From Bradyrhizobium paxllaeri (GTDB lineage Bacteria; Pseudomonadota; Alphaproteobacteria; Rhizobiales; Xanthobacteraceae), in contig NZ_CP042968.1 of the NCBI RefSeq assembly GCF_001693515.2, forward strand, positions 4,340,001 through 4,404,000: a DNA stretch of 64,000 nucleotides. The letters run 5' to 3'. Made by a program: the position numbers and the translations under genes. The notes under the pieces are model-generated. The model was not told where the DNA came from and searched no databases. It saw nothing but the letters and a program-made list of their open reading frames with translations. This document shows positions 27,804 through 35,897 of this stretch, one piece after another; within the stretch, counting starts at the first letter, position 1; each line of letters opens with the position of its first letter.

Positions 27804-28508
27804 ATGCTCACCCAGACGATCACCGCCGCGGCAGTCCCGGCAGCCAAGGTTTTCCCCGCCCCGCGCGCCCAGAGTGTTCCAGCCGTTGATCAGTTCAGCG
27901 TGATCGCGACCTGCGCGGGTGTGATCGCCACCGAATTCTCCTACCGCAAGGACGAGGAAATCTACGGCGAGGGCGAGCCTTGCGAATACGTCTATCAGGT
28001 GGTCCGCGGCGCGGTGCGCACCTACAAGCTCCTCAACGACGGACGGCGGCAGATCGGCGCATTCCACCTGCCCGGCGACGTGTTCGGCCTCGATGCCGGT
28101 ACGGCCCATCGCCTGACGGCTGAAGCGATTGGCGAGACCACGGTCCGCCTGGTGAAGCGGCGCAGCCTCGAAGCCGTCGCCGGATCGAATGTCCAGGTAG
28201 CCCATAACCTCTGGATCATGACCGCAAGCGACCTCCGGCATGCCGAAGACCATATGCTGCTGCTGGGCCGCAAGACCGCGATGGAAAAAGTTGCCACCTT
28301 CCTGCTGGAGATGGACCGCCGGCTCGCCAAAGCCGGCATGATGGCGCTGCCGATGTGCCGCCGCGACATCGGCGACTATCTTGGCCTGACGCTCGAGACC
28401 GTTTCGCGGGCGCTTTCACAACTCAGCGACCAGGGCATTCTGGTGTTCTCCAGCGCCCGCCAAATCGTGCTACGCAATCGCCAGCGACTGGCGGATCTGG
28501 ACGCCTGA
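27804..28508 (+). CDS. fixK: Crp/Fnr-type regulator FixK (FixK2-like)
   Basis: A 234-residue activator starting after GAGGAG. It has the cAMP-binding-like beta-roll (EYVYQVVRGAVRTYKLL, HLPGDVFGLD) and a helix-turn-helix with DYLGLTLETVSRALSQL. It lacks the FNR cysteine cluster. One cysteine, Cys185 in LPMCRRD next to the DNA-reading helix, corresponds to the redox-sensitive Cys183 of B. diazoefficiens FixK2, two residues offset. It is the likely activator of the many TTGA-N6-TCAA sites in the left 29 kb. Confidence 0.95.
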   Translation: MLTQTITAAAVPAAKVFPAPRAQSVPAVDQFSVIATCAGVIATEFSYRKDEEIYGEGEPCEYVYQVVRGAVRTYKLLNDGRRQIGAFHLPGDVFGLDAGTAHRLTAEAIGETTVRLVKRRSLEAVAGSNVQVAHNLWIMTASDLRHAEDHMLLLGRKTAMEKVATFLLEMDRRLAKAGMMALPMCRRDIGDYLGLTLETVSRALSQLSDQGILVFSSARQIVLRNRQRLADLDA

Positions 28509-28549: not shown

Positions 28550-28807
28550 ATGAACAATTATCGCGTCTCCTTCTACAAGGATCTCTGCAATTCCGACGGG
28601 CACAGCTTCAAATGCCTGCAGCGCCAGATCGATGTCCAATCGGACGAACCTTCCCAGGCGATAGTGCTGGCAGAGCGGTTGGTGGATAACGAACGCCTCA
28701 ACGCCGATTGCGTCGAGGTCATGCACCTGAGCGGTCATCATGAGTTCGAACATCCCGCGGTCTATTCGCCCGTGCGCAGCAAGCATTCATGGAACCGCGT
28801 CGCGTAA
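28550..28807 (+). CDS. Small conserved hypothetical protein after fixK
   Basis: An 85-residue soluble protein starting MNNYRVSFYKDLCNSDGHSF after a GGGAGGTG ribosome-binding site. It has two N-terminal cysteines and a histidine-rich middle (MHLSGHHEFEHP). The frame upstream of this ATG is not protein-like. It follows fixK by 41 nt and may be co-transcribed with it. I do not recognise a function. Confidence 0.65.
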   Translation: MNNYRVSFYKDLCNSDGHSFKCLQRQIDVQSDEPSQAIVLAERLVDNERLNADCVEVMHLSGHHEFEHPAVYSPVRSKHSWNRVA

Positions 28808-28902: not shown

Positions 28903-28916
28903 TTGATCCACGTCAA
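28903..28916 (+). promoter_or_regulatory. FixK/FNR box with no protein gene behind it
   Basis: TTGATCCACGTCAA is a perfect site. It predicts transcription from about 28951 to the right, into a short region that ends in an intrinsic terminator at 29009-29054. Confidence 0.75.
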
Positions 28917-28950
28917 TGCGAAACCGGCGAAATGCGGAGATGGTCGATCT

Positions 28951-29054
28951 ACATGCCGGACGAGGATGTCCCGCATCACTCGGCGATCTCGCCGTTTTCT
29001 CCTAAGACTGCCCCGCCATCGTCGGTTGTAGCGACCGCGTTGCGGGGCATTTTT
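28951..29054 (+). ncRNA. Candidate FixK-controlled small RNA (~100 nt)
   Basis: The start is inferred from the FixK box centre at 28909.5 plus 41.5; the end is the U-run of the terminator. The RNA would contain a short perfect hairpin (CGGCGA-TC-TCGCCG, 28981-28994, followed by TTTTCT) and a second larger hairpin. No credible ribosome-binding site or protein is present. It is convergent with the aminotransferase gene, whose stop begins at 29076. No known RNA family is claimed. Confidence 0.45.
29009..29054 (+). terminator. Rho-independent terminator
   Basis: TGCCCCGC (29009-29016) pairs perfectly with GCGGGGCA (29042-29049), with an inner CGGT/ACCG stem, and five U residues follow (29050-29054). 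It lies 93 bp after the perfect FixK box, and also lies between convergent transcription units. Confidence 0.75.
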
Positions 29055-29075: not shown

Positions 29076-30344
29076 TCACACTTCCAGCTCGCGGACGGCC
29101 TTGAAGCCATGCGAAGCCGCCTGCAACGCCTCGTCGATATCGGCTGCACGATGCGCCGACGACAGGAACATGTTGTGCTGGGGATGAAAGAACGCGCCGT
29201 GGCGTAGCGCGGCCGAGCAGAACGCCCTGCCCTTGCGTACCTCCGGATCGCCCTCGAACAGCATCAGCGGCATCGGCGGCGGACCGCTCTGGCGGATGGC
29301 TATGCCATGTTCACTCGCCAGCGCGGCCAATCCCTCACGCAGCCTCAAGCCCATCGCACGGATATGTCCGGGCACATCGGTCTCGCGCGCGATCCGCAAC
29401 GTCGCCCGCGCCGCCGCCATGGCCACCGTGCCGCACCAGAACGATCCGGTGACGAATATTTTGGTGGCGGCTTCGCGGAAGCGATCATTGCCGGTAACAG
29501 CGGCGAGCGCGTAGCCGTTGGCAATCGCCTTGCTCCAGGCGCACAGGTCCGGACGCACGCCGAGCGATTCCCAACTCCCTCTGATATCAAGGCGCAGTCC
29601 CGCTCGCACTTCATCGATGATCAGAGCGGCGTTGGCCGCATCGCAAGCCGCGCGCGCAGCTTCGGCAAATTCTTTCGTCGGCAATTCGAGATCGCGTCCC
29701 ATGTCGTGGCGGAAAGCCGTCACCAGGATCGCGGCGAGATCCTTGCCCGCTTGCTCGACGGCCGCTTGCAGGCTCTGGACATCGTTGTACTCGAAATGCA
29801 GGAGATGCGCGCGGTCCTCGGCCGTCACGCCGGCAACGCTCGGCGAGCACCATGGCAGCGCGCCGTGATAGCTGCCGCGCGCGACCAGCACCTTGCGGCG
29901 TCCGGTGCCGGCGCGTGCGATCGTCACGCAGCTTGTCGTCGCGTCGCCGCCGTTCTTCTGAAACATCGCCCAGTCCGCATGCGGCAGCATGGCGACGAGA
30001 TCCTCGGCAAGCTCCACCATCACCTCGCCCGGACCGTTCAGGCAGTCCCCTTTGGCAGCCTGCGCCGCGGCCGCCGCCTGAACTTCGGGATGCCGATGGC
30101 CGAGCAGGATCGGCCCCCAGCTGCACATGAAATCGATGTACTCGCGCCCATCGACGTCGCGCACGCGGCACCCCTCAGCGGAGGCGAAGAATTGCGGGTA
30201 GCCTTCTGGAAGCCGCGCGGCATTCAGATGGCCCCACATGCCACCGGGAACGACCCGCTGGGCCCTCGCTCGCAAGGTCGCATCCGCTGTCTGCGTTTCG
30301 CTTAACCGCGCTATGTGCTGGGTCATGACGTTCTCGTGATGCAT
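29076..30344 (-). CDS. Class III aminotransferase (glutamate-1-semialdehyde aminomutase-like)
   Basis: A 422-residue pyridoxal-phosphate enzyme. Typical motifs are ALIIDEVRAGLRL, with the cofactor-binding aspartate, and AWSKAIANGY, with the Schiff-base lysine. The N-terminal PGGMWGHLNA and FMCSWGPILLGHRHPEV are aminomutase-like. A housekeeping hemL is usually much more conserved, so this may act on another omega-amino or amino-acid substrate. An alternative start (ATG at 30326, preceded by GAGAA) would remove six residues. Confidence 0.8.
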   Translation of the reverse strand: MHHENVMTQHIARLSETQTADATLRARAQRVVPGGMWGHLNAARLPEGYPQFFASAEGCRVRDVDGREYIDFMCSWGPILLGHRHPEVQAAAAAQAAKGDCLNGPGEVMVELAEDLVAMLPHADWAMFQKNGGDATTSCVTIARAGTGRRKVLVARGSYHGALPWCSPSVAGVTAEDRAHLLHFEYNDVQSLQAAVEQAGKDLAAILVTAFRHDMGRDLELPTKEFAEAARAACDAANAALIIDEVRAGLRLDIRGSWESLGVRPDLCAWSKAIANGYALAAVTGNDRFREAATKIFVTGSFWCGTVAMAAARATLRIARETDVPGHIRAMGLRLREGLAALASEHGIAIRQSGPPPMPLMLFEGDPEVRKGRAFCSAALRHGAFFHPQHNMFLSSAHRAADIDEALQAASHGFKAVRELEV

Positions 30345-35443: not shown

Positions 35444-35897
35444 TATCTGGTCTCCATCGTCGATCGAGAGTTGGGCGCGCGTCGTCTCGCGCCGGGAATC
35501 CTCTTCTGCCTAAACTATCGTTTCCGCCCTAAACTCGTCCACCGTTACGCCCTGATGGTTCCACGGATGGAAATATCCGGGGTGGAAGACACCATTTGGC
35601 GACTGCGGCGCAGTCGCACACCCCGTGGTCGGGACACGAATAACAAACGTGTGCAACGCAATATTGCCGCGTCAATTATTGACGATCCCAATGACATGGC
35701 ATCGTCGCTCCCGCCGCCCGGAATTTCCACGCAACGTTAGTTCAATAACGACGGCCGCGGTGTTTTCTCGACAGATGCAAACAATTCTGTTCTGATCCGA
35801 TTGCGAAATCTCCGCTGGCCACCGCCTCGACGCGGCTCTCCTCCAGACGGAGAACAAAAATAAAAAGCAAAATCTGGCTCAGCAAAGAGGAAACGCC
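35444..35897. other. Long intergenic region upstream of an ABC transporter operon
   Basis: No gene is seen. Two adjacent palindromes lie here, GCAATATTGC (35658-35667) and GTCAATTATTGAC (35671-35683). The last ~60 bp are AT-rich and carry the AAAGAGGAAACGCC ribosome-binding site of the binding protein gene. Confidence 0.55.
35658..35683. promoter_or_regulatory. Twin palindromes, possible operator of the ABC transporter
   Basis: GCAATATTGC and GTCAATTATTGAC are perfect palindromes separated by 3 bp. They lie about 215 bp before the start of the ABC operon. No regulator gene is adjacent. Operator function is an inference. Confidence 0.4.

Follow-up and report, generated by a model that had tools for sequence, protein, structure and literature searches.

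A candidate FixK-activated small RNA gene near fixK in Bradyrhizobium paxllaeri

The FixLJ-FixK cascade, in which low oxygen leads through FixLJ to the activation of FixK, is the textbook example of an oxygen switch in nitrogen-fixing bacteria, described for the most part as a system of transcription control. In Escherichia coli, an FNR-type low-oxygen activator also controls a small RNA (sRNA), FnrS, as set out in passages of PMC8139620. A second group of relevant regulators is the alphaR8 family (Rfam RF00519, suhB/mmgR): in the pages concerned, the SisA-D sRNAs of Caulobacter crescentus are reported to share an anti-Shine-Dalgarno (anti-SD) 10-mer and to be Hfq-bound, with promoters that are unrelated among the siblings (PMC12559287), and MmgR of Sinorhizobium meliloti is described as being controlled by NtrC and AniA and as restricting PHB granules (sections of PMC7143759). 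Within the genus, Bradyrhizobium japonicum USDA 110 encodes BjsR1-BjsR10 and BjrC, intergenic sRNAs of which some occur in multiple, imperfect copies (excerpts of PMC5082802).

We analysed a window of 64,000 nucleotides, positions 4340001-4404000 of the single-contig, 8.38-Mb genome of B. paxllaeri, and found downstream of fixK a predicted sRNA of ~104 nt that we consider likely to be a stand-alone gene activated by a FixK-type regulator at low oxygen, its product acting in trans as an anti-SD repressor, probably with the help of Hfq, and forming an FnrS-like arm of the response. We infer transcription, FixK dependence, Hfq involvement, anti-SD action and targets from the sequence. The likeness to FnrS is one of regulatory logic alone, that of an sRNA under a low-oxygen FNR-type activator; FnrS has FNR as its activator and known targets, whereas the window RNA would have FixK and presumed targets. 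Compared by description, the window RNA shares with BjsR1-BjsR10 and BjrC an intergenic position and the genus; those sRNAs, however, are listed with RpoD, RpoN or no promoter, and in the excerpts concerned none is given as FixK-controlled or as lying beside fixK. The arrangement of alphaR8 RNAs, with a hairpin, an open pyrimidine anti-SD stretch and an intrinsic terminator, recurs here. Unlike them, the window RNA has one more hairpin at its 5' end, its terminator hairpin is longer and includes an inner stem, its promoter is of the FixK type, and its core, UUUUCUCCUA, which lies at the same place and is open in the fold, differs by two changes from the alphaR8 10-mer UUUCCUCCCU. Both FNR-type-regulated and alphaR8-like sRNAs are known kinds; the combination and the seed are, as far as we have seen, new. 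We found no FixK-controlled rhizobial sRNA in titles and abstract openings from the openly licensed PMC literature, so that subscription papers or supplementary tables may already list a transcript start at this place, and none is described in the passages concerned of PMC5082802, PMC4842269, PMC6515984, PMC5596092, PMC2873474 and PMC3751524.

Gene order and promoter of the candidate RNA

The features of the locus are as follows.

27804..28508, plus strand: fixK, encoding a CRP/FNR-type regulator (Pfam HTH_Crp_2, cNMP_binding and Crp), the presumed activator
28550..28807, plus strand: orf85, a conserved gene of 85 aa without a recognised family, between fixK and the RNA
28903-28916, plus strand: FixK box TTGATCCACGTCAA, followed by a conserved TGC through 28919
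28939..28944, plus strand: -10-like element GATGGT, 22 nt past the box
28951..29054, plus strand: predicted small RNA of ~104 nt, with its start placed at 28950 or 28951
28953..28976, plus strand: hairpin 1, from the fold
28981..28994, plus strand: hairpin 2, CGGCG-AUCU-CGCCG, from the fold and from pairing across 28 loci
28993..29009, plus strand: alphaR8-like motif CGUUUUCUCCUAAGACU, two mismatches to CGTTTCCTCCCWAGACT
28995-29008, plus strand: pyrimidine seed UUUUCUCCUAAGAC, single-stranded in the centroid fold
29009..29054, plus strand: intrinsic terminator with an 8-bp stem (29009-29016/29042-29049), an inner hairpin and T5 (29050-29054)
29076..30344, minus strand: convergent gene for a class-III aminotransferase, with glutamate-1-semialdehyde aminomutase as its best match, under the cut-off

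Upstream of the RNA, the genes are ordered fixL, fixJ, a receiver-only gene, fixK and orf85. Both fixL and fixJ exceed their NCBIfam cut-offs; the top NCBIfam match of the fixK product is the FixK model, at 230.9 bits and under the cut-off of 300. We found no match for orf85 in Pfam or NCBIfam; its strand is also that of the RNA, which follows ~140 nt further 3'. A TTGAG-type FixK-like box also stands upstream of fixK in all 30 of the fixK loci viewed (L112-L141), mostly ~600 nt before the fixK start; in the window it is at ~27200, between fixJ and the receiver gene.

The original prediction placed a FixK box at 28903-28916, and this box is present: TTGATCCACGTCAA matches the FixK2 consensus TTG(A/C)-N6-(T/G)CAA given in passages of PMC5582078 and has one mismatch to the strict palindrome TTGAT-N4-ATCAA. 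Sites with at most one mismatch to that palindrome number 12 in the window vs 1.14 expected. For nosR, the same passages give a distance of 40.5 bp between box axis and transcription start (PMC5582078), and applying this spacing to the window box yields the predicted RNA start at 28950/28951, which puts the box ~40.5-41.5 bp before that start, as expected of a FixK regulon member. Across 28 full-length loci (see below), we found exact box half-sites in 27, at -44 (24 loci), -43 (2) or -45 (1) relative to the model start; the exception, L041, has a box with two mismatches. The conservation extends to the TGC after the box (T in 25, G in 26 and C in 25 of the 27 boxed loci) and to the -10-like element, in which the second-place A is kept in 26/27 and the sixth-place T in 25/27. 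At 23 and 27 nt from the box, these two bases are spaced four apart, like those of a -10 element. On the mirror side of the box, facing away from the RNA, the 27 boxed loci exhibit no -10-like conservation.

Conservation and folding

A DNA search of 100 genomes matched 12, the B. paxllaeri genome included, all of the same genus; one of the 12, in G027 (38 nt, E 6e-4), was unconfirmed by model R1 and was discarded as spurious. R1, built from nine aligned loci, matched 30 of 265 genomes of the genus at E <= 0.01, 29 of them clearly (E < 1e-12). The remaining one (G291, E 0.0099) has a matching stretch without the seed motif and is regarded as false. In a sample of 391 genomes of the family, R1 matched 15, and this genus was the only one of the 47 sampled to have matches. 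It found nothing above 20 bits downstream of fixK at 21 loci of genomes that lack the RNA. The 29 genomes yielded 32 loci: 28 are full-length and four (L060, L061, L062 and L144) are boxless. These four consist of the 3' half only and sit beside the same aminotransferase gene; three of them come from genomes that lack a close FixK.

In a pattern scan of named genomes, 12 stretches had the exact core; they belong to B. lablabi, B. jicamae, B. algeriense, B. murdochi, B. hereditatis, three MAGs and three further Bradyrhizobium strains, one of which has two stretches. We take the named species to be the B. jicamae group. The scan has no record for B. diazoefficiens, which is presumably among the genomes of that collection.

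Mean identity per ten alignment columns is 0.35-0.60 upstream, 0.93 in the block that holds most of the box, 0.67-0.77 from the box to the RNA, 0.71-1.00 within the RNA, and 0.74 downstream before dropping under 0.5. The stretch between orf85 and the box is not conserved. With the box half-sites exact and at -43 to -45 in 27/28 full-length loci, chance can be excluded, and 27/28 keep both box and terminator, a joint conservation that had been set beforehand as a check on the original prediction. Together, these results show that box, promoter geometry, RNA and terminator are conserved as a single unit.

The RNA of 28951-29054 is predicted to fold at -45 kcal/mol (z = -3.46), and 1/200 shuffles was as stable. 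Two internal hairpins and a clear terminator with an 8-bp GC stem and five U had been proposed for this transcript, and the fold returns all of them, with seven G-C among the eight pairs of the terminator stem. A plain terminator scan, which is weak evidence alone, found four terminators in 2 kb vs 1.3 +/- 1.4 in shuffles. Over the 28 loci, the named pairs are formed in 98.6% of alignment cells; hairpin 1 and the outer terminator stem each reach 99.5%, the variation in hairpin 1 being mostly one-sided. Covariation was almost absent in the first nine aligned sequences and seemed strong with 32 rows, which it partly owed to the four boxless loci. Because these loci inflate the signal, we used the recount over 28 loci, which gives a weaker figure: three pairs (four cells) changed on both sides, vs 0.7 in shuffles and at most two pairs (three cells) in slid controls, with one such pair in a structure-blind alignment. 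Covariation thus appears to back the predicted fold, modestly.

Independence from neighbouring genes and alternative readings

As to INDEPENDENCE from fixK, the RNA unit is kept at 8 of 28 loci where the adjacent fixK is partial or frame-broken (L036, L037, L040, L041, L043, L050, L053 and L058); orf85 is full length at all eight (85 aa matched). Likewise, orf85, which was matched in 20 of the 30 R1 loci searched, flanks 20 of the 28 full-length loci and is absent from eight, all of which keep the exact box. At three of the orf85-less loci (L051, L142 and L143), a common NarK-type gene lies upstream in opposite orientation; a fourth, L035, has similarity to that gene (a 928-aa frame in L150). 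In longer pieces around L051, L143 and L142 (L148, L157 and L158, respectively), the NarK model exceeds its cut-off, and in L157 and L158 narG then follows. In these narK-side carriers, a distance of 15 to 57 kb separates the RNA copy from fixK within a single contig, and the copies may therefore have moved inside one respiration island. Of the other orf85-less loci, L054 and L059 have a tRNA-side context in common, and the contigs of L056 and L057 are short. From these results, we conclude that the RNA unit is independent of fixK and orf85 as neighbours. A MobA/MobL-type relaxase gene (L148:2182-5130) lies near the narK-side copy of G038, a possible sign of mobility.

The search for fixK covered 27 of the 29 carriers; the two others, G206 and G267, are incomplete. 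Full-length FixK with at least 85% identity is encoded in 19, and all 19 have the RNA with an intact box. Among the eight carriers that have no close FixK, the box is kept in four (G104, G279, G219 and G132) and is broken or absent in four (G281, G282, G039 and G057); the association of box with close FixK gives a one-sided Fisher p of ~0.004, calculated by hand and uncorrected for kinship. G104, G279, G219 and G132 appear to speak against strict FixK dependence: with the box there and no close intact FixK, another CRP/FNR-type protein may read it in those genomes.

How else might the conserved unit be explained? One reading makes the box serve another gene, as a divergent promoter, or a CRP/FNR-type regulator other than FixK, such as NnrR. 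It is favoured by the divergent narK that neighbours the box at L051, L142 and L143 and by the four genomes that keep the box with no close FixK; however, the -10-like element is found on the RNA side only, the other side in the window is unconserved, and the box is intact wherever a close FixK was found, so we hold this reading to be improbable. We give still less credence to the view that the stem is a mere terminator of the fixK-orf85 transcript, with the RNA a 3'-UTR product and the box incidental. The shared strand, the short distance from orf85 and the 20/30 loci at which orf85 adjoins would suit such a product, but the spacing of box and -10-like element is fixed while the orf85-to-box stretch is not conserved, and the eight loci without flanking orf85 keep box, RNA and terminator. 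The last and least credible reading, which we hold to be very unlikely, is a gene for a small leaderless protein. Near the predicted start, all 28 loci have the same ATG, and some have 26-aa frames; this ATG is accounted for, however, by the pairing of hairpin 1, and the conserved core, counted from the first ATG, falls in all three frames (13, 13 and 2 of 28), with frames from the ATG running from 17 to over 100 aa. Because of these three frames and widely varying lengths, the region does not code. No conserved reading frame lies behind the box in the 28 full-length loci, as had been proposed for the window from the start, and the unit is non-coding.

Predicted action and kinship with alphaR8

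On the reading that we prefer, that of a stand-alone FixK-type-activated sRNA gene, FixK or a close CRP/FNR-type relative would bind the box, as the conserved promoter suggests, and recruit RNA polymerase, with the box centre ~41 bp before the start and the -10-like element at its distance of 22 nt. The ~104-nt RNA would then build up, ending at the intrinsic terminator and exposing the seed UUUUCUCCUAAGAC between hairpin and terminator stem, as in alphaR8 RNAs (MmgR, SisA-D). By analogy with alphaR8 and FnrS, the seed may pair in trans with Shine-Dalgarno regions, probably via Hfq, and a set of mRNAs would be translated less, a repressive arm beside the transcriptional activation by FixK. With what looks like a FixK-switched sRNA gene kept in a group of related species, the oxygen response probably also blocks the translation of some messages. 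As a candidate target, the fixK Shine-Dalgarno region is predicted to pair with the seed with energies between -11.4 and -13.7 kcal/mol for 9 carriers and between -5.5 and -14.7 kcal/mol for 21 non-carriers; the carriers are thus no better, most of the non-carriers pairing equally well. A narrow pattern for extended Shine-Dalgarno complements returned 12 rows (11 sites) in 9/23 carriers, none of them recurrent. A CrfA-like sponge was set aside on inspection, as the RNA bears the pyrimidine strand and not its complement.

In B. diazoefficiens at low oxygen, transcripts of fixK2, hemA, hemB and clpA go up and their proteins do not, and the mechanism is left open in the relevant passages of PMC6515984. 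We do not put the window RNA forward to explain this mismatch, given the blank for that species in the pattern scan. It offers instead a testable case within the genus of a FixK-type promoter driving a predicted anti-SD-type sRNA.

At the gathering threshold, Rfam has no match within the window. RF00519 aligns end to end with the window RNA at 23 bits (E 0.028 in 901 nt) and, at the same place in relatives, scores 22-28 bits in 14/20, with no match listed in the other 6/20. Weak RF00519 matches (E <= 1) occur in 12/14 unrelated control genomes, so this score by itself is not evidence, and since it lies under the cut-off of 41 bits we do not file the RNA as an alphaR8 member. The genome has five alphaR8 copies above the cut-off, several with CGTTTCCTCCC(T/A)AGACT; the window RNA motif, CGTTTTCTCCTAAGACT, has two mismatches to it, and some relatives are one letter away from the alphaR8 motif (CGTTTTCTCCCAAGACT) or carry UUUUCUCCCA at the place of the 10-mer. 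Motif sites with at most three mismatches number two in the window vs 0.14 expected. R2, a model of the alphaR8 RNAs of the genus, ranks the RNA first in the window (E 0.016), with a full-length alignment; over the 97 kb of the 32 R1 loci, it matches 26 of them and no other place. No FixK-like box was present from -300 to +60 at the 17 examined of the 29 other RF00519 places in the genome. Across the 265 genomes of the genus, a FixK box with canonical TTTCCTCCC occurs in seven, one match each; R1 finds nothing at these loci, and thus no second FixK-driven canonical alphaR8 copy is recognised.

It is possible, and we would put it a little short of an even chance, that in one Bradyrhizobium group a FixK promoter captured an alphaR8 RNA, whose seed changed, to give a dedicated repressor of translation at low oxygen; the gene would move as a cassette of box, RNA and terminator between loci of anaerobic respiration (fixK and narK-narG) and outlive the adjacent fixK. 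We find it rather unlikely that a FixK-type-driven sRNA unrelated to alphaR8 arrived at this seed and layout by convergence and works through another site, such as hairpin 1. That alternative draws on the RF00519 score, 23 vs 41 bits, on the control matches, on the terminator stem and 5' hairpin, which are unlike those of alphaR8, and on R1, which detects no canonical alphaR8 copy significantly (best E 0.24). Against it stand the 17-nt motif, with two mismatches here and one in some relatives and in the same layout position, and the specificity of R2. By this comparison, the RNA is alphaR8-like and probably a derived sibling rather than a member.

Several related sites were seen along the way. 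A second motif site in the window, at 35519-35535 (CGTTTCCGCCCTAAACT), has two mismatches to the alphaR8 motif, and a similar site with one mismatch lies at G000:C1:5121722. At L080 (G000:C1:6551322-6551398 and just upstream), an alphaR8 match under the cut-off (40.1 bits) has the pyrimidine seed about four times in tandem ahead of one terminator, and at L078 (4331167) the seed is present twice; both are possible multi-seed sRNAs.
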